A stretch of 43,116 bases of DNA, taken from the NCBI RefSeq assembly GCF_000299415.1, contig NZ_AMPG01000010.1, positions 1 through 43,116 of the forward strand, read 5' to 3'. The notes under the pieces are model-generated. The model was given only the letters and a program-made list of their open reading frames with translations. It ran no database searches and was not told the origin of the DNA. How positions within the stretch are numbered: the stretch's first letter is position 1; each line of letters opens with the position of its first letter. This document shows, piece after piece, positions 34,650-43,074 of this stretch. A program made the translations under genes and the position numbers. The stretch is from Candidatus Microthrix parvicella Bio17-1 (GTDB taxonomy: Bacteria > Actinomycetota > Acidimicrobiia > Acidimicrobiales > Microtrichaceae).

Positions 34650-34702
34650 GCCACACCGACCGATCGAACAATGAGCCGCAACTTCGGAGTAGAGAGAGCA
34701 TC

Positions 34703-34909
34703 ATGAGCGACAAGACCATTAAGCGCGACGACATCCGCAACCAGTTGACCGATATCAGCGACGGGGTGGCAGGTCAGGCCGAGGAGGCCAAAACCCAACT
34801 GTTCGCCGTGGCGGCCGGTATCGGTTTGCTGGCACTGATCCTGTTCTTCTTCCTCGGTCGAAAGAACGGCCTGAAGCGCTCCGCAGTGATCGAGATTCGT
34901 CGCGCCTGA
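34703..34909 (+). CDS. Small single-helix membrane protein, 68 residues
   Basis: A 68-residue protein: a polar helix (RDDIRNQLTDISDGVAGQAEEA), one membrane segment (about 33-51) and a basic tail. No family is recognised. ATG 34703 follows an AGAGAGA stretch. Its stop overlaps the start of the next gene by one base (TGATG), so the two are coupled. Confidence 0.68.
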   Translation: MSDKTIKRDDIRNQLTDISDGVAGQAEEAKTQLFAVAAGIGLLALILFFFLGRKNGLKRSAVIEIRRA

Positions 34910-35442
34910 TGCTGCTCAGCCTGCTGAAGATGGCGGCGCCCTATCTGGCGGGTGGGGGGCCGACGGGCATGGTCGCCCGCAAGGCGGTCGACTGGGTTCA
35001 GGAGCGCTTGGAGGAGCCGGACGAGCAGCGCGTGACCTCGGCCCGGCTGGTCCCCGGCGACCGACTGGAGGTCGTCGCGCGTCCTGCGCCCACCAAGCAG
35101 GAGCGGCAACTTGAGGCCAGGCTGGCCGCCGCCAGGGCCCGGCTGGCCCACGCCCGCAGCGTCAAGCCCAAGCAGGTGAAGGTTGCCGCCAGGCTGGAGC
35201 GCACCCAACGGCGTCTGGACAAAGTCGCCGCGGGCTCGTCCAAAGCGGCCAAACTTCGGGCCCGGGAAGCCGATCTGCTGGTGCGTTTCGATCGCATGGA
35301 TCGGCGCCGCGGCGACCGGCGCCTGGCCGAGGCCGAGGTGATCGAGCTGAGCGAACGCCTCGAAGCGGTCCGCGCCGCTGCGTTGGCAGCAGCCGGCGGT
35401 TCCGGCACGACCAGGCGGGTGTTCTACCGGGCGGACGACTGA
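34909..35442 (+). CDS. Coiled-coil protein coupled to membrane protein
   Basis: A 177-residue protein with a short hydrophobic N-terminus (LLSLLKMAAPYLAGGG), then from about residue 60 to 165 a long, very basic, heptad-like Ala/Leu/Arg helix. No enzyme motif is seen. It might associate with the membrane through the N-terminus or through the coupled 68-residue protein. Possible roles are nucleic-acid or envelope binding because of the strong positive charge; nothing in the sequence decides. It shares a start/stop overlap with the preceding gene. Confidence 0.65.
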   Translation: MLLSLLKMAAPYLAGGGPTGMVARKAVDWVQERLEEPDEQRVTSARLVPGDRLEVVARPAPTKQERQLEARLAAARARLAHARSVKPKQVKVAARLERTQRRLDKVAAGSSKAAKLRAREADLLVRFDRMDRRRGDRRLAEAEVIELSERLEAVRAAALAAAGGSGTTRRVFYRADD

Positions 35443-35482
35443 GCGTTCACGGCCCGCTGCCCACAACTGGCAGACTGGGCTC

Positions 35483-35677
35483 ATGATCGTTCACCTGCGC
35501 CAGCCGACCCGGGAGGTGACCTTTGAGGGGTCGCTCACGGTCACCGCCCTGCTCGGGCGCCTGGAGATCAACCGCGAAACCGTGCTGGTGATCCGTAACG
35601 GCACGCTGGTGCCGGGCGACGAGCGCCTTGGGGCCGATGACGTGATCGAGATCCGTCCGGTGGTGTCCGGTGGCTGA
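35483..35677 (+). CDS. ThiS/MoaD-like sulfur carrier, TtuB-like
   Basis: A 64-residue beta-grasp protein ending in Gly63-Gly64, as needed for adenylation and thiocarboxylate formation. The sequence pattern (MIVHLRQPTREVTF, NRETVLVIRNGTLVPGD, DDVIEIRPVVSGG) fits ThiS/MoaD/TtuB; the partner next door, 27 bases downstream, is TtuA, so TtuB is the best reading and ThiS is the alternative. It would be activated by a ThiF/MoeB-type E1 not present here and hand sulfur to TtuA. In Thermus, TtuB is also attached to proteins like ubiquitin. A weak -10-like CAGACT ends 6 bases before ATG 35483. Confidence 0.85.
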   Translation: MIVHLRQPTREVTFEGSLTVTALLGRLEINRETVLVIRNGTLVPGDERLGADDVIEIRPVVSGG

Positions 35678-35704
35678 GGTGAGCATGACCGTGCGGGGGT
35701 TGCC

Positions 35705-36643
35705 ATGAAGTGTCGGGTGTGTCGTGGACCGGCGATCATCGATCTGCGCCGTCACAACGCCAATTTTTGTGCCGAGCACTTCGTGAAGTTCTGTCGTGAT
35801 CAAACGGCCAAGGCGATCAAGGATCATGACATGTTGCAGCCGGATGACCGGGTGCTGGTCGCAGTGTCGGGCGGTAAGGACTCACTTGCGGTGTGGGACA
35901 TCCTCGGCGCCCTCGGCTACGAGGCCGATGGTTTGTACGTCGGTCTCGGCCTTGGTGAGTACTCGGACGCGTCCGGCGATGCTGCCCGGGCCTTTGCCAC
36001 CCGGCACGGCCTGAAATTGATCGAGGTCGATCTGCGGGAGACCTATGGGTACGACATCCCCACCGGCTCCAAGGCGGCCAAGCGGACGCCGTGCTCGGCC
36101 TGTGGCATGTCGAAACGCCACGTGTTCGACGAGGCTGCCCGCACCGGGGGCTACGACGCGTTGGTCACCGGGCACAACCTTGACGACGAGGCGGCGGTCT
36201 TGTTCGGCAATGTGCTTCGCTGGCAGATGCCCTACCTCGGTCGCCAACGCCCGGTGTTGGAGGCCGGCGATGGGTTTCCTCGCAAGGTCAAGCCGCTGAT
36301 CCGCTTGGGGGAGCGCGAGATGGCCGCCTACTGCGTGGTGTCGGGTATCGACTACCTGGTCGAGGAGTGCCCGATGGCCGCCGGCAACCGACACCTGGCC
36401 TACAAGGAGGCGCTCACCGATATCGAGACGCGTTCCCCGGGAGCGAAATTCGCGTTCTATCACGAGTTTCTGGCCAAGGCGGCCGATCGCTTCGACGACG
36501 ACGAGACCACGGGCCGCGACGGCCTCGGAATCTGCGAGCGCTGCGGTTCTCCCTCGGAGTCCGAGGTGTGTGCATTCTGCCGTCTGGCCGAGCGGGCGTC
36601 TTCGGCTCAGCCGGTCGAGTTGATCTCAAAGCGGGCGTCGTGA
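35705..36643 (+). CDS. ttuA: TtuA-type tRNA U54 2-thiolase
   Basis: A 312-residue PP-loop ATPase of the TtcA/TtuA family. Every expected feature of Thermus TtuA is in place: N-terminal zinc site Cys3, Cys6, Cys22, His25; PP-loop SGGKDS (55-60); [4Fe-4S] cysteines Cys130, Cys133 (TPCSAC) and Cys222 (EECP); and a C-terminal zinc finger Cys277, Cys280, Cys289, Cys292. TtuA adenylates C2 of 5-methyluridine 54 in tRNA and replaces its oxygen with sulfur from TtuB thiocarboxylate. It is coupled by GTGA to trmI, whose m1A58 product favours thiolation in Thermus. Cytosolic Ctu1-like wobble thiolase is the alternative, less favoured because of the TrmI context. Confidence 0.92.
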   Translation: MKCRVCRGPAIIDLRRHNANFCAEHFVKFCRDQTAKAIKDHDMLQPDDRVLVAVSGGKDSLAVWDILGALGYEADGLYVGLGLGEYSDASGDAARAFATRHGLKLIEVDLRETYGYDIPTGSKAAKRTPCSACGMSKRHVFDEAARTGGYDALVTGHNLDDEAAVLFGNVLRWQMPYLGRQRPVLEAGDGFPRKVKPLIRLGEREMAAYCVVSGIDYLVEECPMAAGNRHLAYKEALTDIETRSPGAKFAFYHEFLAKAADRFDDDETTGRDGLGICERCGSPSESEVCAFCRLAERASSAQPVELISKRAS

Positions 36644-37530
36644 GCACACCCATCACCCATGGCCCGCCACATGACGGCGTCGCCCACCAGGGTCGCCACG
36701 GTCCGCTTCAGGTTGGCGAATCGGTGCTGTTGATCGACCACAAATCGCGTCGGTACCTGCAAACCCTGACTCCGCATCAGGAGTTTCACAGCCATGCGGG
36801 CCCGTTGGAACACGACCGGCTGATTGGGGCCGAGCCGGGCTCCACCCATCGCACCACCAAGGGCCTGACCTTCACGGTGTTTCGCCCGACGTTGTCCGAT
36901 CTGGTGTTCAAGATGCCTCGTGGCGCCCAGGTGATCTATCCCAAAGACCTGGGCCCCATCCTGATGCTCGCCGATATTGCACCCGGCGTCGACGTGCTTG
37001 AGTCCGGAGTCGGGTCGGGGGCGTTGTCGGCGGCCATGCTGCGTGCCGGTGCCAACGTGACGGGCTACGAACTGCGCGACGACTTCGCCCGACGGGCACA
37101 GCTGAATGTGGCCCGCTCCGTGGGGCCCGAGGCGGCTGCCCGCTACACGGTGCAGTTGCGCGACGTCTACGAAGGCATCGACCTCCCCGCCGGTGGGGGG
37201 TTCGATCGGGTGGTGCTCGATCTCCCCGAACCCTGGCAGGTGGTACCCCACCTTCGAGGGGCGTTGCGTCCCGGCGGCATCGTGTTGGCCTATACCCCCA
37301 GCATCATGCAGGCCAGCCAGTTCCGCGAGGCGCTGGGCGAGGCCGGTTTGGTGATGGCCGAAACACTCGAGGTGTTGCACCGCACCTGGAAGGTCGACGG
37401 CGCGGCCGTCCGTCCGGACCACCGCATGGTGGCCCATACCGCCTTCCTGACCCATGCCCGCATGCCCTCCACGGCAGAACGCACGCTGCCTCCGCCCGCC
37501 ACCGAGGCGCTCGACAAATCAGCCGGCTGA
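36640..37530 (+). CDS. trmI: tRNA (adenine-58-N1)-methyltransferase TrmI
   Basis: A 296-residue class I SAM-dependent methyltransferase. The N-terminal beta-domain (GESVLLIDHKSRRYL) is followed by the conserved KGLTFTVFRPTLSDLVFKMPRGAQVIYPKDLG linker region, SAM motif I as ESGVGSGALS (near residue 127), VTGYELRDDFARRA and the VVLDLPEPWQV catalytic-Asp motif. It makes m1A58 in the T-loop of tRNA. In Mycobacterium the homologue (Rv2118c) also sits near the proteasome genes. GTG 36640 overlaps the ttuA stop by four bases. It is convergent with the ferredoxin gene, with only 7 bases between. Confidence 0.95.
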   Translation: MSTPITHGPPHDGVAHQGRHGPLQVGESVLLIDHKSRRYLQTLTPHQEFHSHAGPLEHDRLIGAEPGSTHRTTKGLTFTVFRPTLSDLVFKMPRGAQVIYPKDLGPILMLADIAPGVDVLESGVGSGALSAAMLRAGANVTGYELRDDFARRAQLNVARSVGPEAAARYTVQLRDVYEGIDLPAGGGFDRVVLDLPEPWQVVPHLRGALRPGGIVLAYTPSIMQASQFREALGEAGLVMAETLEVLHRTWKVDGAAVRPDHRMVAHTAFLTHARMPSTAERTLPPPATEALDKSAG

Positions 37531-37537
37531 AGCCTGA

Positions 37538-37783
37538 TTACTCGTCAGGTTCGATGAAGATGCACTCGCCGGGGCATTCCTCGGCGGATTCGATGACACC
37601 CTCAAGCTCATCGTCGGGGATCTCGGCCCGGCCCTCGGAGCCGCCGGGATCGTTGAACACCTTGTCGCCTTCCTTGACGTAGGCCAAACCGTCGTCGAGC
37701 AGGGTGAACACAGCCGGCGAGATCTCCTCGCACAGGCCATCGCCGGTGCACAGGTCCTGATCGATCCAGACCTTTAATCCCAT
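37538..37783 (-). CDS. D-type single-cluster ferredoxin
   Basis: An 81-residue ferredoxin with C-x2-D-x2-C (Cys12, Asp15, Cys18) and a distal Cys-Pro (Cys70), so three cysteines and an Asp at the fourth site; Cys74 is extra. This is the Pyrococcus-type arrangement, able to hold [3Fe-4S] or [4Fe-4S]. It is very acidic, as for small soluble electron carriers. ATG 37783 has AGGAG five bases upstream. Position between trmI and arc, on the opposite strand, recurs in my recollection of actinobacterial loci, but its partner is unknown; reducing the TtuA cluster is speculative. Confidence 0.88.
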
Positions 37784-37803
37784 GGCATCTCCTCATTGGT
37801 GAT

Positions 37804-37818
37804 TCCCGAATCTCGGGA
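37804..37818. promoter_or_regulatory. Palindrome between ferredoxin and arc
   Basis: TCCCGA-ATC-TCGGGA is a perfect 6-bp inverted repeat with a 3-base centre. It lies 21 bases upstream of the ferredoxin start and just downstream of the minus-strand TATGCT box, in the place expected for an operator or a short 5' hairpin. No known regulator is assigned. Confidence 0.45.
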
Positions 37819-37832
37819 GGCGCTGATAGCTC

Positions 37833-37838
37833 AGCATA
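37833..37838 (-). promoter_or_regulatory. Candidate -10 box for ferredoxin gene
   Basis: TATGCT on the minus strand gives a 5' leader of about 43 nt ending in AGGAG before ATG 37783. Confidence 0.4.
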
Positions 37839-37932
37839 CCCACGCACCGGCAGATAAACCCGGCGAATCACGAACTAATTCAGTGTCGTTCATCACGCCT
37901 CAAGGGTGGCCCCGCTTCGATGCCCGTGCGGG

Positions 37933-37938
37933 TAGGTT
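37933..37938 (+). promoter_or_regulatory. Candidate -10 box for arc
   Basis: TAGGTT lies 26 bases before ATG 37964, giving a short leader that contains a strong AGGAGGGGG (37952-37960). Unlike many neighbours, arc is not leaderless. No TTGACA-like -35 is visible. Confidence 0.42.
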
Positions 37939-37963
37939 GGGGACGAGCATCAGGAGGGGGCCG

Positions 37964-39721
37964 ATGACGGCCAGCGACGAAACCAAGCGACTTGCCGCTG
38001 AGGCCGAGGAGCTTCACGACCGGCTGGCGGCGGCCGAGCGCGAGAACTCCATGATGGCCAGGCGCGGAGCCGAGGCGCCCAAGCGCATCCGCACGCTTGA
38101 AGACCGCCTGTCGGAGCTGAAGGCCCAATTGGCTCAGGCGGTCACGCAGAACGAGAAGCTCACGTTCACCCTGAGAGAGGCCCGGGATCACATCGCCGCT
38201 CTGCGGGACGAGGTGGACAAGCTGACCCGGCCTCCCGCCGGCTACGCCACGCTGCTGGCCACCAACGCCGATGGCACGGTGGACATCTCGTCCAGCGGCC
38301 GAAAAATGCGGGTGGAGGTGTCGCCCAACGTCGAGACGGACGACCTGCGTCGTGGCGCGGAAGTGGTGTTGAACGAGTCTTACAACGTGGTCATGGTGCG
38401 AGCGCCGGAGATCACCGGCGAGGTCGTGACGATCAAGGAGATCCTCGAGGTGGGGTGCCGCGCGCTGGTGGTGGGCCGTGCCGACGAGGAGCGGGTGGCC
38501 GAGCTGGCCGACCATCTCACCGACGCCCCGCTACGCGCCGGCGACACCATGTTGATGGAGCCCCGCGCCGGGGTGCTGGTGGAACGTCTGCCTCGCCCGG
38601 AGGTGGAGGAACTGGTGTTGGAAGAGGTGCCCGACATCGCCTACACCGACATCGGAGGTCTCGACAGCCAGATCGAATCGATCATCGATGCGGTCGAACT
38701 GCCGTTCCTGCAAGCCGAGCTTTTCCGTACCTATGACCTCCCGGCGCCCAAGGGCATTCTTTTGTATGGCCCGCCGGGCTGCGGCAAGACGCTGATCGCC
38801 AAGGCGGTGGCCAATTCCCTGTCCAAGCAGGTGGCCAAGACCACCGGCGAGGACGCCCGCAGCTTCTTCCTGAACATCAAGGGGCCCGAGCTGCTCAACA
38901 AGTACGTCGGCGAAACCGAGCGCCACATTCGTCTGGTGTTTCAACGGGCCCGTGAGAAGGCGGCCGAGGGCACGCCGGTCATCGTGTTCTTTGACGAGAT
39001 GGAGAGCCTGTTCCGTACCCGTGGCAGCGGCATCTCCTCCGACATGGAGTCCACCATCGTCCCTCAGCTGCTGGCCGAGATCGACGGCGTCGAGGCGCTG
39101 CGCAACGTGATCGTGATCGGCGCCTCCAATCGGGAGGATCTGATCGACCCCGCGATCCTCCGGCCGGGCCGCCTGGACGTGAAGATCAAGATCGAACGGC
39201 CCGATGCCGAAGCGGCCACCCGCATCTTCGGGGTGTACCTCACCAGTCGCATGCCGATCGCCGAGTCCGAGGTGGAGGAGCTGGGTGGCGGCGACCCGGC
39301 CAAGGCTCTGCAGGCAATGGCCGAGGCGGCGGTCGAGGAGATGTACCGGGAGGATGACGACAATCAGTTCCTCGAGGTCACCTATCAGAACGGTGATCGC
39401 GAGACGATGTACTTCCGCGACTTCTCGTCAGGGGCAATGATCGAGAACATCGTGCGCCGCTCAAAGAAGCTGGCGATCAAAAGGGAGTTGGCCGGTGGGG
39501 CCCGGGGCGTGGTGGCCTCCGACCTGGTGGCCTCGGTCCGTCAGGAGTTCCGGGAGCACGAGGACCTGCCCAACACGACGAACCCGGATGACTGGGCCAA
39601 GATCTCGGGTAAAAAAGGCGAGCGCATCGTGTATGTGCGCACCTTGGTGAGTCACACCTCGGAGGACGAGCCTGAGGGCGGCCGAGCCATCGAGCGGGTG
39701 CAAACCGGTCAGTACCTGTGA
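37964..39721 (+). CDS. arc: Proteasomal AAA ATPase ARC/Mpa
   Basis: A 585-residue hexameric AAA unfoldase that captures pupylated proteins and threads them into the 20S proteasome. In order: N-terminal coiled coil (about 5-75) that binds Pup, two OB folds (about 80-230, starting [15 protein letters not shown]), and the AAA domain with Walker A GPPGCGKT (about 269-276), Walker [11 protein letters not shown] and the second-region GASNRE. The C-terminus is GQYL, the proteasome-docking motif with penultimate Tyr. ATG 37964 has AGGAGG six bases upstream; the longer frame to 37796 is not supported. Dop follows after 17 bases. Confidence 0.97.
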
Positions 39722-39738: not shown

Positions 39739-41244
39739 ATGGCCATCCACAAGGTGCTGGGCATCGAGACCGAATACGGCATCTTTGTCCGCAACGCGCC
39801 CGAACAGAACCCCATCGCCGCGTCCAGCCTGCTGGTGAACTCCTATGTCAGCGAGGTGGCGCAGGCGGGAGCCGGACCGCGCATCGGTTGGGACTTCGGC
39901 GACGAGATGCCGGCCAACGACGCTCGCGGGGTGCTGGAGCAGTACGTGCAGCCTCCCGATGTGGAAACCCACCTCGTGAACGCGGTGCTCACCAACGGGG
40001 CGCGCTTCTACGTCGATCACGCCCATCCCGAGTACTCCTCGCCCGAGGTGGCCTCGGCCCGCGATGGCGTGGTGTGGGATCGGGCCGGGGAGGAGGTGTT
40101 GCGTCTGGCGATGACCGCCGCCAATCGCACCCTTGGCGATGATCAACAGGTGATCGTTCACAAGAACAACTCCGACGGCAAAGCCAACAGCTACGGCACC
40201 CACGAGAACTACGTGATGGATCGTGCGGTGCCCTTCAATCGCATCGTCGCCCGGGCCACACCGCATTTGGTGACCCGTCAGGTGTTCTGCGGGGCGGGCA
40301 AGGTGGGTTGTGAGCTTCCCGGGCGTCATGACGTGACCTATCAGCTCAGCCAACGGGCGGACTTTTTTGAGGAGGAGGTGGGCCTGGAGACCACGCTGAA
40401 GCGGCCGATCATCAACACCAGGGATGAACCGCACGCCGATCCGCAGCGGTATCGCCGCCTGCACGTGATCATCGGCGACGCCAACATGTCGGAGTGGGCC
40501 ACCTGGATGAAGCTGGCCACCACCGCGATCGTGCTGGCCATGATCGAGGACGACTGGCCGATGCCGGAGCTGCGCCCCATGACCCCGGTGTCCACCTTGC
40601 GGCGCATCAGCTGGGACCTGAGCCTGGCCGAGACCTACCAAACCCTCGATGGGCGCACGATCACCGCGTTGGAAACCCAGCGGGAGCTGTGCGCGCTGGC
40701 CCGGGCCTGGGCGGCCGAGCACGACACGTCGGTGGTGGGTGGTGTGGATGCGGTGACCGAGGTGCTTGGGGAATGGGAACTGGTCCTCGACGACCTGGAA
40801 AACGATCGGGAGCGGGCGGCCGACCGGGTCGACTGGGTGGCCAAGGGACGCCTGCTCGGCGGGTTCGCCGAACGCCATGGCCTGGCGCCGGGCTCGGCCA
40901 AGTTGCGTGCGCTCGACCTGCAGTATCACGACTTGCGACGCGATCGGTGCCTGGCGCTGCGGGCCGGGCTTCGCACGCTGGTGAGCGAGGCCGAGGTGGT
41001 GTCGGCCATCCACTCGCCGCCGACCGACACCCGGGCCTGGTTTCGCGGCACCGTGCTGGCCCGCTTCACCGATCAGGTGGTCACGGCCAACTGGGACTCG
41101 ATTGTTTTCGACACCGGGTCGTCGTCGTTGTCACGCGTTCCCATGATGGAGCCCACCCGCGGCACCGAGGCGATCCTTGGTGAGATGGTGGCTTCCAGCG
41201 CCGATGCGGCCGAGTTGTTGTCCAAGCTGAACGCGGCGGGTTGA
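39739..41244 (+). CDS. dop: Pup deamidase/depupylase Dop
   Basis: A 501-residue enzyme of the Dop/PafA family (glutamine-synthetase-like fold). The start GIETEYGIF (Glu in the metal/nucleotide site), YVDHAHPEYSSPE near residue 94, the NNSDGKANSYGTHENY segment near 150 and RRLHVIIGDANMSEWATWMK near 240 are characteristic. Length and the N-terminal sequence favour Dop over the ligase PafA. It converts the C-terminal Gln of Pup to Glu and removes Pup from substrates. pup would normally follow at once, but the next 1.9 kb is mobile DNA on the opposite or same strand. Confidence 0.96.
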   Translation: MAIHKVLGIETEYGIFVRNAPEQNPIAASSLLVNSYVSEVAQAGAGPRIGWDFGDEMPANDARGVLEQYVQPPDVETHLVNAVLTNGARFYVDHAHPEYSSPEVASARDGVVWDRAGEEVLRLAMTAANRTLGDDQQVIVHKNNSDGKANSYGTHENYVMDRAVPFNRIVARATPHLVTRQVFCGAGKVGCELPGRHDVTYQLSQRADFFEEEVGLETTLKRPIINTRDEPHADPQRYRRLHVIIGDANMSEWATWMKLATTAIVLAMIEDDWPMPELRPMTPVSTLRRISWDLSLAETYQTLDGRTITALETQRELCALARAWAAEHDTSVVGGVDAVTEVLGEWELVLDDLENDRERAADRVDWVAKGRLLGGFAERHGLAPGSAKLRALDLQYHDLRRDRCLALRAGLRTLVSEAEVVSAIHSPPTDTRAWFRGTVLARFTDQVVTANWDSIVFDTGSSSLSRVPMMEPTRGTEAILGEMVASSADAAELLSKLNAAG

Positions 41245-41358: not shown

Positions 41359-41443
41359 TTATGCCGAATCCGTGATTATGCCGAATGGGGGTGCGGATGT
41401 GTTGGTGGGAGCGGGATCGGCGGTGTTGTGTTCGGCATAATCA
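41358..41443. repeat. End repeats of recombinase element
   Basis: ATTATGCCGAAT occurs at 41358-41369 and again at 41375-41386 (17-base period), and TTCGGCATAATCA at 41431-41443 is the exact inverse of TGATTATGCCGAA at 41373-41385. The inverted copy contains the stop codon of the recombinase fragment. Such short repeats are expected as recombinase-binding arms at a tyrosine-recombinase element end. Confidence 0.75.
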
Positions 41444-41860
41444 CAGGTTCTTGAGGAAGGCGAGGGTGCCGGTGTCGGGCTGGTAGCGGCCGGGGCTGGT
41501 GTTGGGTGGTGTGGTCCGGTTGAGGGCGGTTTCTTTGGTGCCCATGTCGGCGTGCATGTAGATCTGGGTGGTCTCGATTGTTTCGTGGCCGAGCCAGAGC
41601 GCGATGACGGTGATGTCGACGCCGGCTTGGAGGAGGGCCATGGCACAGGTGTGCCGGAGGGTGTGCGGAGTCACATTTTTGGTGGTTAGGGATGGATGCC
41701 TGGCGGCGGCTGTTGCGGTGTGTTTGGTGACGAGGTGGGCAATGGAGTCTCGGCTGAGGTGGGTCCGACGTCCGCTGGGGAACAACGGATCGTCGGGTTG
41801 CCCGTTGCGTTCTCGGAGCCATTCTCCGAGGACAGCGATCACTGGGGTGCCCCGAGGATT
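41441..41860 (-). pseudogene. Tyrosine recombinase, C-terminal fragment (RIT-like)
   Basis: Codons from 41860 to the stop at 41441 (139 residues) encode the catalytic end of a tyrosine recombinase: HTLRHT (His-x2-Arg), LGHETIETT (second His) and the nucleophile Tyr in TQIYMHAD. The tail GRYQPDTGTLAFLKNL resembles, from memory, the third recombinase of recombinase-in-trio elements. The N-terminal half, including the first catalytic Arg, is missing because the IS3-family element begins at 41861, in the middle of the gene; the rest may lie beyond 43098. The fragment alone should be inactive. Confidence 0.8.
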
Positions 41861-41870
41861 TCGGACAGTG
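41861..41870. repeat. IS left inverted repeat
   Basis: TCGGACAGTG, the inverse of 43089-43098. Similarity stops after about 10 bases. Confidence 0.75.
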
Positions 41871-41908
41871 GGTGATTGATAACATCCACTGACACAAAGG
41901 AATCCAAT

Positions 41909-42199
41909 ATGGTACGCAAACGAACAAAATACTCTGACACTTTCAAGGCCGAGGCCGTGAAAATGGTGATCGACGGTTCCCGGCCGATCGCCACGGTCGC
42001 CAACGAGTTGGACATCAACCCGGGCACACTCGGTGTGTGGGTCAACAAGTACCGTGATGCCCACCCGATCGAGGAGGACCCTTTGACCCCAGCCGAACGT
42101 ATCCAATTCTGCGAACTCCAAGCCGAGAACCGGGAACTCCGAATGAAAAACGAGTTCTTGGGAAAAGCGGCGTCCTTCTTCGCCCAGGAGTATCGGTGA
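41909..42199 (+). CDS. IS3-family transposase OrfA
   Basis: A 96-residue DNA-binding subunit: KYSDTFKAEAVKMVIDG and the helix-turn-helix segment IATVANELDINPGTLGVWVNKY (about 25-47), then a leucine-zipper-like helix (RIQFCELQAENRELRMKNEFL, about 62-82). ATG 41909 has AAAGGA with 7-base spacing; the frame extends to 41876. The end overlaps orfB by four bases. Confidence 0.92.
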   Translation: MVRKRTKYSDTFKAEAVKMVIDGSRPIATVANELDINPGTLGVWVNKYRDAHPIEEDPLTPAERIQFCELQAENRELRMKNEFLGKAASFFAQEYR

Positions 42200-43074
42200 T
42201 CTCGAAGTACGAGTTCATCGACGGGGGGCAGGCGAACTACCCGGTCACCAAGATGTGTTTATGGGCGGGCGTGTCGAAGTCCGGCTACTACGACTGGCGG
42301 AAACGTCCGCTGTCAGCAACCGCGGAACGACGCGAGGAACTGGCGGTCGATGTCCGCAAGGTCTTCGATGCATCCGATGGCACCTACGGGCACCGTCGGG
42401 TCCATGCCGAGCTGGGCCGCAAGAAGATCGCTGCCGGCCTTGAACTGGTCCGTCGGGTGATGGTCGAGGGTGACATGGTTGCCTGTCAGCCCAGGCCATA
42501 CAGGCGAACGACCGACCCTGACGGCACGCCGAGCACGGCGGACTTGGTCGACCGGGACTTCACCGCCGCGGAGCCGGGCGTGAAGCTGGTCGGTGATATC
42601 ACCTATATCCGCACGTGGGAAGGGTGGGTGTACTTGGCGACGGTGATCGATTGTTTCTCGAAGATGGTGGTCGGGTTCGCGATGGCCGACCATATGCGCA
42701 CCGGTCTGGTGATCGACGCGTTGCAGGCCGCGATCGACGCTGGTGGCATTCAGTCGAATGCCATCTTTCATTCGGATCATGGGGCGCAGTACACCTCTGA
42801 GGAGTTCAAAGCGTTCCTTGCGTCAAATGACATGGTTGGGTCGATGGGTAAGACCGGGGTGTGTTGGGATAATGCTATGGCGGAATCGTTTTTTGCTTCG
42901 TTGAAGAACGAGTTCGTTTATCGGACAGTGTTCCCGACACGAAGAAAGGCTGTTTCGGGTATTGCGCATTGGATCGAGATTTGGTATAATCGTTCCAGGC
43001 TTCATTCGGGGATCGGTTACCGGACACCGGTTGAAGTGCATGACAGCTATCGCGACGAGACACGGGCAGCGTAA
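42196..43074 (+). CDS. IS3-family transposase OrfB (DDE)
   Basis: A 292-residue rve-fold transposase. An HTH_21-like segment (TYGHRRVHAEL near 60) precedes the catalytic core: first Asp in GDITYI, second Asp in FHSDHGAQYTS, and Glu in NAMAESFFASLKNEF, with the usual D-x-x-35-E spacing. GTG 42196 forms a GTGA overlap with orfA, suggesting re-initiation instead of, or besides, the -1 frameshift common in the family. It looks complete. Confidence 0.94.
   Translation: MISKYEFIDGGQANYPVTKMCLWAGVSKSGYYDWRKRPLSATAERREELAVDVRKVFDASDGTYGHRRVHAELGRKKIAAGLELVRRVMVEGDMVACQPRPYRRTTDPDGTPSTADLVDRDFTAAEPGVKLVGDITYIRTWEGWVYLATVIDCFSKMVVGFAMADHMRTGLVIDALQAAIDAGGIQSNAIFHSDHGAQYTSEEFKAFLASNDMVGSMGKTGVCWDNAMAESFFASLKNEFVYRTVFPTRRKAVSGIAHWIEIWYNRSRLHSGIGYRTPVEVHDSYRDETRAA

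Follow-up and report, generated by a model that had tools for sequence, protein, structure and literature searches.

The closest described counterpart of the genes treated here is the TtuA/TtuB/TtuC system of Thermus thermophilus together with the methyltransferase TrmI, whose product m1A58 speeds the thiolation of U54 in Thermus. Heat-loving microbes employ these proteins to harden the tRNA T-loop. In Thermus, U54 receives its methyl group and its thio group independently of each other, and the m5U54 enzymes of archaea are similar to RumA, also called RlmD (PMC6418473). A 2018 review treats m5s2U54 as a typical thermophile-specific nucleoside, and in its accessible part the nucleoside comes from named thermophiles and not from mesophiles (PMC6313347). 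For Sulfolobus acidocaldarius, s2U54 is described together with TtuA and TtuB, with no TrmA, Pus10 or TrmY gene found according to the excerpt (PMC7912444).

Ubiquitin-like carriers of this kind depend on an activating E1, which acts on a free carrier C-terminus (established chemistry; PMC3980101). Some carriers reach this state only by cleavage: in M. tuberculosis an unidentified protease cleaves MoaX between Gly82 and Ser83 (PMC4326299), and in D. radiodurans a JAMM protease cleaves the MoaD-MoaE fusion DR2607 (PMC8832034). A survey of archaea describes MoaD-MoaE fusions as well as ThiS genes beside PP-loop ATPases, and its excerpt does not name a TtuB-TtuA fusion (PMC2948915). Within the parts of the open-access literature looked at, we found no report of tails on TtuB or of TtuB-TtuA fusions.

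Here we describe a ttuB-ttuA-trmI row from Candidatus Microthrix parvicella Bio17-1, located in a stretch of 43,116 nucleotides that was analysed as a whole and is called the window. We are fairly confident that the row encodes a T-loop module combining TtuB-fed s2U54 thiolation with m1A58 formation, in which the tailed or fused carriers of relatives would have to be cut first. These carrier tails and the recurrent fusion are the more original part of the finding.

The three-gene row and its distribution

The three genes follow each other on one strand (Table 1), with a gap of 27 bases between ttuB and ttuA and an overlap of 4 bases, GTGA at 36640-36643, between ttuA and trmI. It is this spacing that suggests a single transcript; a simple scan for sigma-70-like promoters returned none in 34700-38000 vs 0.3 expected. 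The downstream neighbours include a proteasomal ATPase, which we take to be of the Mpa/ARC type and whose true start probably lies downstream of the listed TTG, and a Pup-ligase family protein, presumably Dop or PafA. A 177-aa charged protein without a Pfam match (34909-35442) lies 40 bases upstream of ttuB on the same strand. Beyond the Pup-ligase family gene, a minus-strand frame resembling an integrase was recognized by eye (region 41441-43074), as was the first member of an IS3-type transposase pair at 41876-42199, the second of which (42196-43074) has integrase-core Pfam matches.

Table 1. Features of the ttuB-ttuA-trmI region, in positions of the window
Feature	Position	Strand	Description
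ttuB	35483..35677	+	64-aa beta-grasp sulfur carrier with exact Gly-Gly end (...RPVVSGG)
ttuA	35705..36643	+	312 aa; predicted tRNA U54 2-sulfurtransferase with PP-loop, [4Fe-4S]-type cysteines and two zinc fingers
trmI	36640..37530	+	296 aa; GTG start; predicted tRNA m1A58 methyltransferase
small 4Fe-4S ferredoxin	37538..37783	-	neighbour, convergent to trmI
proteasomal AAA ATPase	37796..39721	+	neighbour
Pup-ligase family protein	39739..41244	+	neighbour

A sequence-only reading of this DNA had proposed a TtuB-like beta-grasp carrier of 64 residues ending in Gly-Gly, a PP-loop TtuA with Cys3/Cys6/Cys22/His25, Cys130/Cys133/Cys222 and a C-terminal four-Cys finger, and a TrmI overlapping ttuA by 4 bases. 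All of these elements were found again. TtuB matches the Pfam families ThiS (3.3e-9) and SAMP2 (8.3e-8), and its predicted model (mean pLDDT 90.9, from a 17-row alignment) is a beta-grasp whose top five PDB matches all come from 5ztb and 5gha, where they are chains of the Thermus TtuA-TtuB structures. TtuA matches TtuA_LIM_N (2e-10) as well as PP-loop models and carries every cofactor residue of Thermus TtuA, namely C3, C6, C22 and H25, C130, C133 and C222, C277, C280, C289 and C292, and SGGKDS at 55-60. An alignment of 28 class members shows no variation at the ten cysteines or in SGGKDS, and position 25 is Cys in some. Among PDB entries TtuA scores best with Thermus TtuA (297 bits), followed by P. 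horikoshii TtuA (222) and NcsA (90). TrmI matches GCD14 (5.9e-23) and TrmI-like_N (4.1e-16), its best PDB match being M. tuberculosis Rv2118c with 193.5 bits. The agreement of the three-gene observation with families and structures is far beyond chance, and the earlier reading of the module was probably right in kind.

How widespread is this arrangement? In a class sample of 247 genomes, with TtuA counted at E <= 1e-30, the protein occurs in 101 (74 of the 175 good ones). It is absent at this threshold from 146 (101 of the 175 good ones), including three of five further genomes that belong to the window's family, which makes TtuA dispensable. When one place per genome is taken (101 of the 103 found, leaving aside two partial second ones), ttuB lies directly upstream in 99 loci and trmI directly downstream in 97, and all six misses (two ttuB, four trmI) are contig ends. 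The best 80 named loci of a GTDB scan, among the matches listed, give 79 with ttuB and 79 with trmI, and again each of the two misses is a contig end. Some genomes occur both here and in the class sample, as shown for example by one contig of 1,296,539 bases, and the two sets are not independent. Intergenic gaps in relatives are approximate, being measured from the match start.

The phylum sample has a TtuA match in 84 of 396 genomes. Outside the class all 70 places were read, 54 of them close and 16 others, the latter comprising 15 loci of a distant group and L237, a contig-end fragment with trmI. The close loci have ttuB in 51 cases (three misses at contig ends) and trmI in 52, the gene being truly absent beside ttuA in L203 and L225. 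The co-occurrence search that had been proposed earlier finds a fixed row whose sole misses in the class are at contig ends, and the linkage of the two T-loop genes, like the enzyme identities, is strongly supported. The module, of a kind known from thermophiles, is a regular but patchy feature of the class, physically linked to TrmI.

A plasmid search with TtuA gave 32 records, many annotated as TtcA and all partial except one covering at least 80%, a Thermovirga lienii record (L326) with no ttuB or trmI annotated within 2 kb on either side. A phage search with TtuB gave no match, and a plasmid search with the fusion protein described below showed no fusion. At one class locus (L108, genome G205) the ttuA match spans only the first 139 residues, between ttuB and trmI, and is likely a decaying copy.

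Tailed and fused carriers

In the window itself TtuB is unfused and has GG as its exact end. Among the 99 TtuBs of the class such an end is found in 23, and the other 76 carry a tail after SGG, which is two residues long in 49 of them. Exact GG ends make up 13 of the 79 TtuBs in the named set (from the best 80 loci) and 1 of 21 among separate outside-class TtuBs. In 30 of the 54 close outside-class loci ttuB runs on into ttuA in one open frame, TtuB-SGG-short linker-TtuA. These 30 distinct loci lie within L173-L226 (e.g. L188, L189 and L217), and L243 repeats L173. Two tails stand out by their length: that of L038 has 64 residues, counted from the first SGG, and ends in a second, partial EIRPVISGG copy (...EIRPVISGGARP), and that of L076 has 55 residues, part of which is repeated.

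Since the E1 needs a free C-terminus, tailed and fused TtuBs should require a cut after GG, and we consider them probable precursors of the carrier that are cut there before working. The residue following GG is consistent with such a site. It is Ala or Ser in 66 of the 76 class tails (46 A, 20 S) and in 29 of the 30 fusions (27 A, 2 S); the named-set tails give 50 of 66 and the outside-class tails 16 of 20. At the next position, P2', A or S occurs in only 17 of 70 class tails. The rows are related, hence no p-value is attached to these counts.

Could the tails and fusions instead be side products of translational coupling, arising from a 4-base overlap followed by loss of the stop, with a harmless tail that either stays in place or is removed by general peptidases? 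The 4-base overlap in 58 of the 101 class loci would fit, as would the two-residue length of most tails and the finding that carriers of another family near JAMM genes, treated below, are tailed in 12 of 23 cases. We nevertheless think this unlikely, though it keeps some weight. A free C-terminus is the only one that the E1 adenylates, all 30 fusions retain SGG at their joint, and the Ala/Ser bias holds for P1' and not for P2'. Furthermore, 27 of the 30 fusions have lost every ATG, GTG and TTG between SGG and the first Cys of TtuA, so that by these codons TtuA with its first zinc finger is made only as a fusion. On the TtuA tree described in the next section, the 29 fused rows need six changes of fusion state, gains and losses counted together, and at least four of them are forced by well-supported branches.

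Returning to a precursor that is cut after Gly-Gly, the obvious question is which peptidase would be responsible. The JAMM family PF14464 is found in 90 of the 101 TtuA-positive class genomes and in 94 of the 146 TtuA-negative ones. Outside the class it occurs in 51 of 53 TtuA genomes, in 50 of them over the cut-off, and it is over the cut-off in 29 of 30 fusion genomes. Eleven class genomes have TtuA without a JAMM match: three with exact GG (G062, G183, G212), seven with a tail (G100, G150, G174, G178, G200, G205, G206) and one without TtuB at a contig end. Co-occurrence was tried as a means of assigning JAMM as the TtuB protease and gave no link with tails, JAMM being missing for 3 of 23 exact and 7 of 76 tailed carriers. 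Very complete genomes without JAMM point both ways. G062 (95%) and G411 (100%) have a TtuB with exact GG, which fits the role; against it stand G100 (90%) with a tail, G205 (96%) with a tail and a truncated ttuA, and G256 (94%) with a fusion and JAMM at 21 bits only. Being common without TtuA and unlinked to tails, JAMM is a candidate only.

Near the JAMM gene several loci (e.g. L113, L118, L127 and L128) encode a carrier ending in PAVAGG, presumably CysO-like. With the narrow pattern PAV[AS]GG it was found in 23 of 60 JAMM loci, 11 times with exact GG and 12 times tailed, so tails are not unique to TtuB.

Taken to mesophilic Actinomycetota at large, the proposal would be that s2U54 is an ordinary trait there and that its carrier is first made in masked form, bearing a short tail or placed ahead of TtuA in a 1:1 fusion, until a Gly-Gly peptidase (JAMM being the candidate) cuts between GG and A or S; we see the chances of this as evenly balanced. 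If the masked-precursor reading is true, tRNA thiolation has a maturation step like that of ubiquitin precursors. The fusions and tails offer a predicted maturation step as well as a way into the question of how TtuB is matched to TtuA.

Target of the thiolase and predicted product

How would the module work? Judged by homology, TtuA, with a [4Fe-4S] cluster on Cys130/133/222, would activate U54 of tRNA using ATP, and sulfur would pass from TtuB to U54, yielding s2U54, or m5s2U54 if an RlmD-like enzyme methylates U54. TrmI would make m1A58, the reverse-Hoogsteen partner of position 54, and the fixed row would keep both steps together. In relatives with tailed or fused TtuB a peptidase, most likely a JAMM metalloprotease, would first cut after Gly-Gly.

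A different role for the carrier would be that of a protein modifier in the manner of SAMP or Urm1, tied to the Pup-proteasome genes, with tRNA thiolation as a secondary activity. Genes for a proteasomal ATPase and a Pup-ligase family protein do adjoin in the window. However, trmI beside proteasome genes is a usual actinobacterial layout, and the closeness of ttuB to the Pup genes may therefore only reflect trmI. The SAMP2 match of TtuB also speaks for protein modification, as does K137 of TtuA, which is invariant in 28 alignment rows and corresponds to a conjugation site of Thermus TtuB, a carrier that is conjugated to TtuA and TtuC (PMC3980101); this lysine fits the T-loop module as well. 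Yet in loci found through TtuA the constant neighbours of ttuB are enzymes for thiolation and methylation of tRNA, and we judge a mainly protein-modifying TtuB to be improbable.

The site on the tRNA was approached by a maximum-likelihood tree of 99 rows, consisting of 25 of the 101 class loci, 53 of the 54 close outside-class loci, the 15 distant ones and 6 references. The outgroups are one NcsA and two TtcA rows, and the root is the midpoint. As the program warned of several long branches, we rely on the group only and not on its inner order. This group has 80 rows (support 96/93) and unites 77 close actinobacterial TtuAs with Thermus TtuA, Pyrococcus TtuA and L225; NcsA, both TtcAs and the 15 distant proteins from actinobacteria fall outside. 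Grouping with wobble (U34) thiolases, named earlier as the outcome that would speak against TtuA, is thus not what the tree gives. Among profiles, the TtuA equivalog NF049949, a Pyrococcus-named model, scores 252.5 bits and misses its cut-off of 450, and NcsA and TtcA reach 111.5 and 66.1 bits. Neither TtcA nor NcsA was found in the genome itself, where PF01171 matches two genes alone, TtuA and a TilS-like one. The genome does encode MnmA (255 bits), so U34 thiolation is already covered and TtuA is not needed there. A target at wobble U34, as for NcsA/Ctu1, or at C32, as for TtcA, is suggested by the shared superfamily and the NcsA and TtcA profile scores and is very improbable given the much higher TtuA profile and PDB scores, the position of NcsA and TtcA in the tree, the presence of MnmA and the fixed linkage to the T-loop enzyme TrmI.

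The distant TtuA-like group (L227-L242 minus L237) shows about 30-35% identity and belongs to other actinobacterial families, mostly f68. Its 15 loci have neither ttuB nor trmI adjoining, and it possibly has another target.

As a likely activating E1 the genome has one ThiF-family match, a 392-aa protein with an N-terminal rhodanese and a MoeB-type E1, which scores 544.5 bits with PRK08762 (cut-off 449) and 325.5 with the SAMP E1 UbaA. TrmFO is absent from the genome, its best score being 21.8 bits vs a cut-off of 428.65, and among the 50 TtuA-positive genomes examined (of 154 read) it exceeds the cut-off in G411 alone, whose TtuA clusters with Pyrococcus in the tree. With TrmFO lacking, s2U54 is the probable product; this would change if m5U54 were formed by an RlmD-like enzyme. 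This first choice also follows from the independent addition of methyl and thio groups in Thermus and from the s2U54 of S. acidocaldarius without m5U54 genes. The resemblance of archaeal m5U54 enzymes to RumA/RlmD leaves room for m5s2U54, for which a 444-aa RlmD-like protein would be at hand (RlmD model 166.8 bits, cut-off 183.55; TrmA 44.9). Predictions on 30 of the 49 tRNA matches gave 32 distinct tRNAs, and 31 of these have the T-loop motif TTCRA when a simpler T-loop pattern is used (an earlier one gave 22 of 32). The remaining one is a tRNA-Phe that may have been predicted wrongly.

Host temperature and comparison with known systems

The host of the module looks mesophilic by two rough proxies, a 16S G+C of 56.7% and an IVYWREL estimate of about 38 °C, the latter based on a mechanically picked set of open reading frames that includes doubtful ones. 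Its nearest named relatives are metagenome-assembled genomes of Acidimicrobiia, some titled Ilumatobacter, Ilumatobacteraceae or Microthrixaceae, and by these relatives the class of the window is probably Acidimicrobiia; clashing titles on a few contigs (Bifidobacterium breve, Ferrithrix thermotolerans) were set aside. Judged by their isolate labels (Baikal-deep, casp, LacPavin, fen), their habitats may be cool, in some cases lakes such as deep Baikal. The sequence-only reading had called U54 thiolation a thermophile trait. With TtuA in 101 of 247 class genomes and a mesophilic-looking host, it is doubtful that this holds generally. Should the class make s2U54, the role of this nucleoside would go beyond stability to heat, and thanks to the fixed linkage with TrmI the 54-58 pair could be tested directly at moderate temperature.

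Compared with Thermus thermophilus, the locus has a close TtuA with all Fe-S, Zn and PP-loop residues, the same TtuB fold, a TrmI and an E1 that is likely shared with other carriers. It differs from Thermus in its mesophilic-looking host, in having ttuB, ttuA and trmI in one row, in lacking TrmFO and in a rhodanese fused to the E1, and its relatives add carrier tails and TtuB-TtuA fusions. With Sulfolobus acidocaldarius it shares the TtuA and TtuB genes. That organism is a hyperthermophilic archaeon with s2U54 and, in the excerpt, without known m5U54 enzymes (PMC7912444), whereas here the RlmD-like enzyme is a candidate for m5U54. The fusions, finally, recall MoaX and DR2607, the fused MoaD-MoaE proteins, in that a ubiquitin-like carrier is placed ahead of the enzyme it feeds. 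Those proteins belong to the molybdopterin pathway and their cleavage has been observed; in the relatives of our locus the fused enzyme is a tRNA thiolase, and the cut is predicted.
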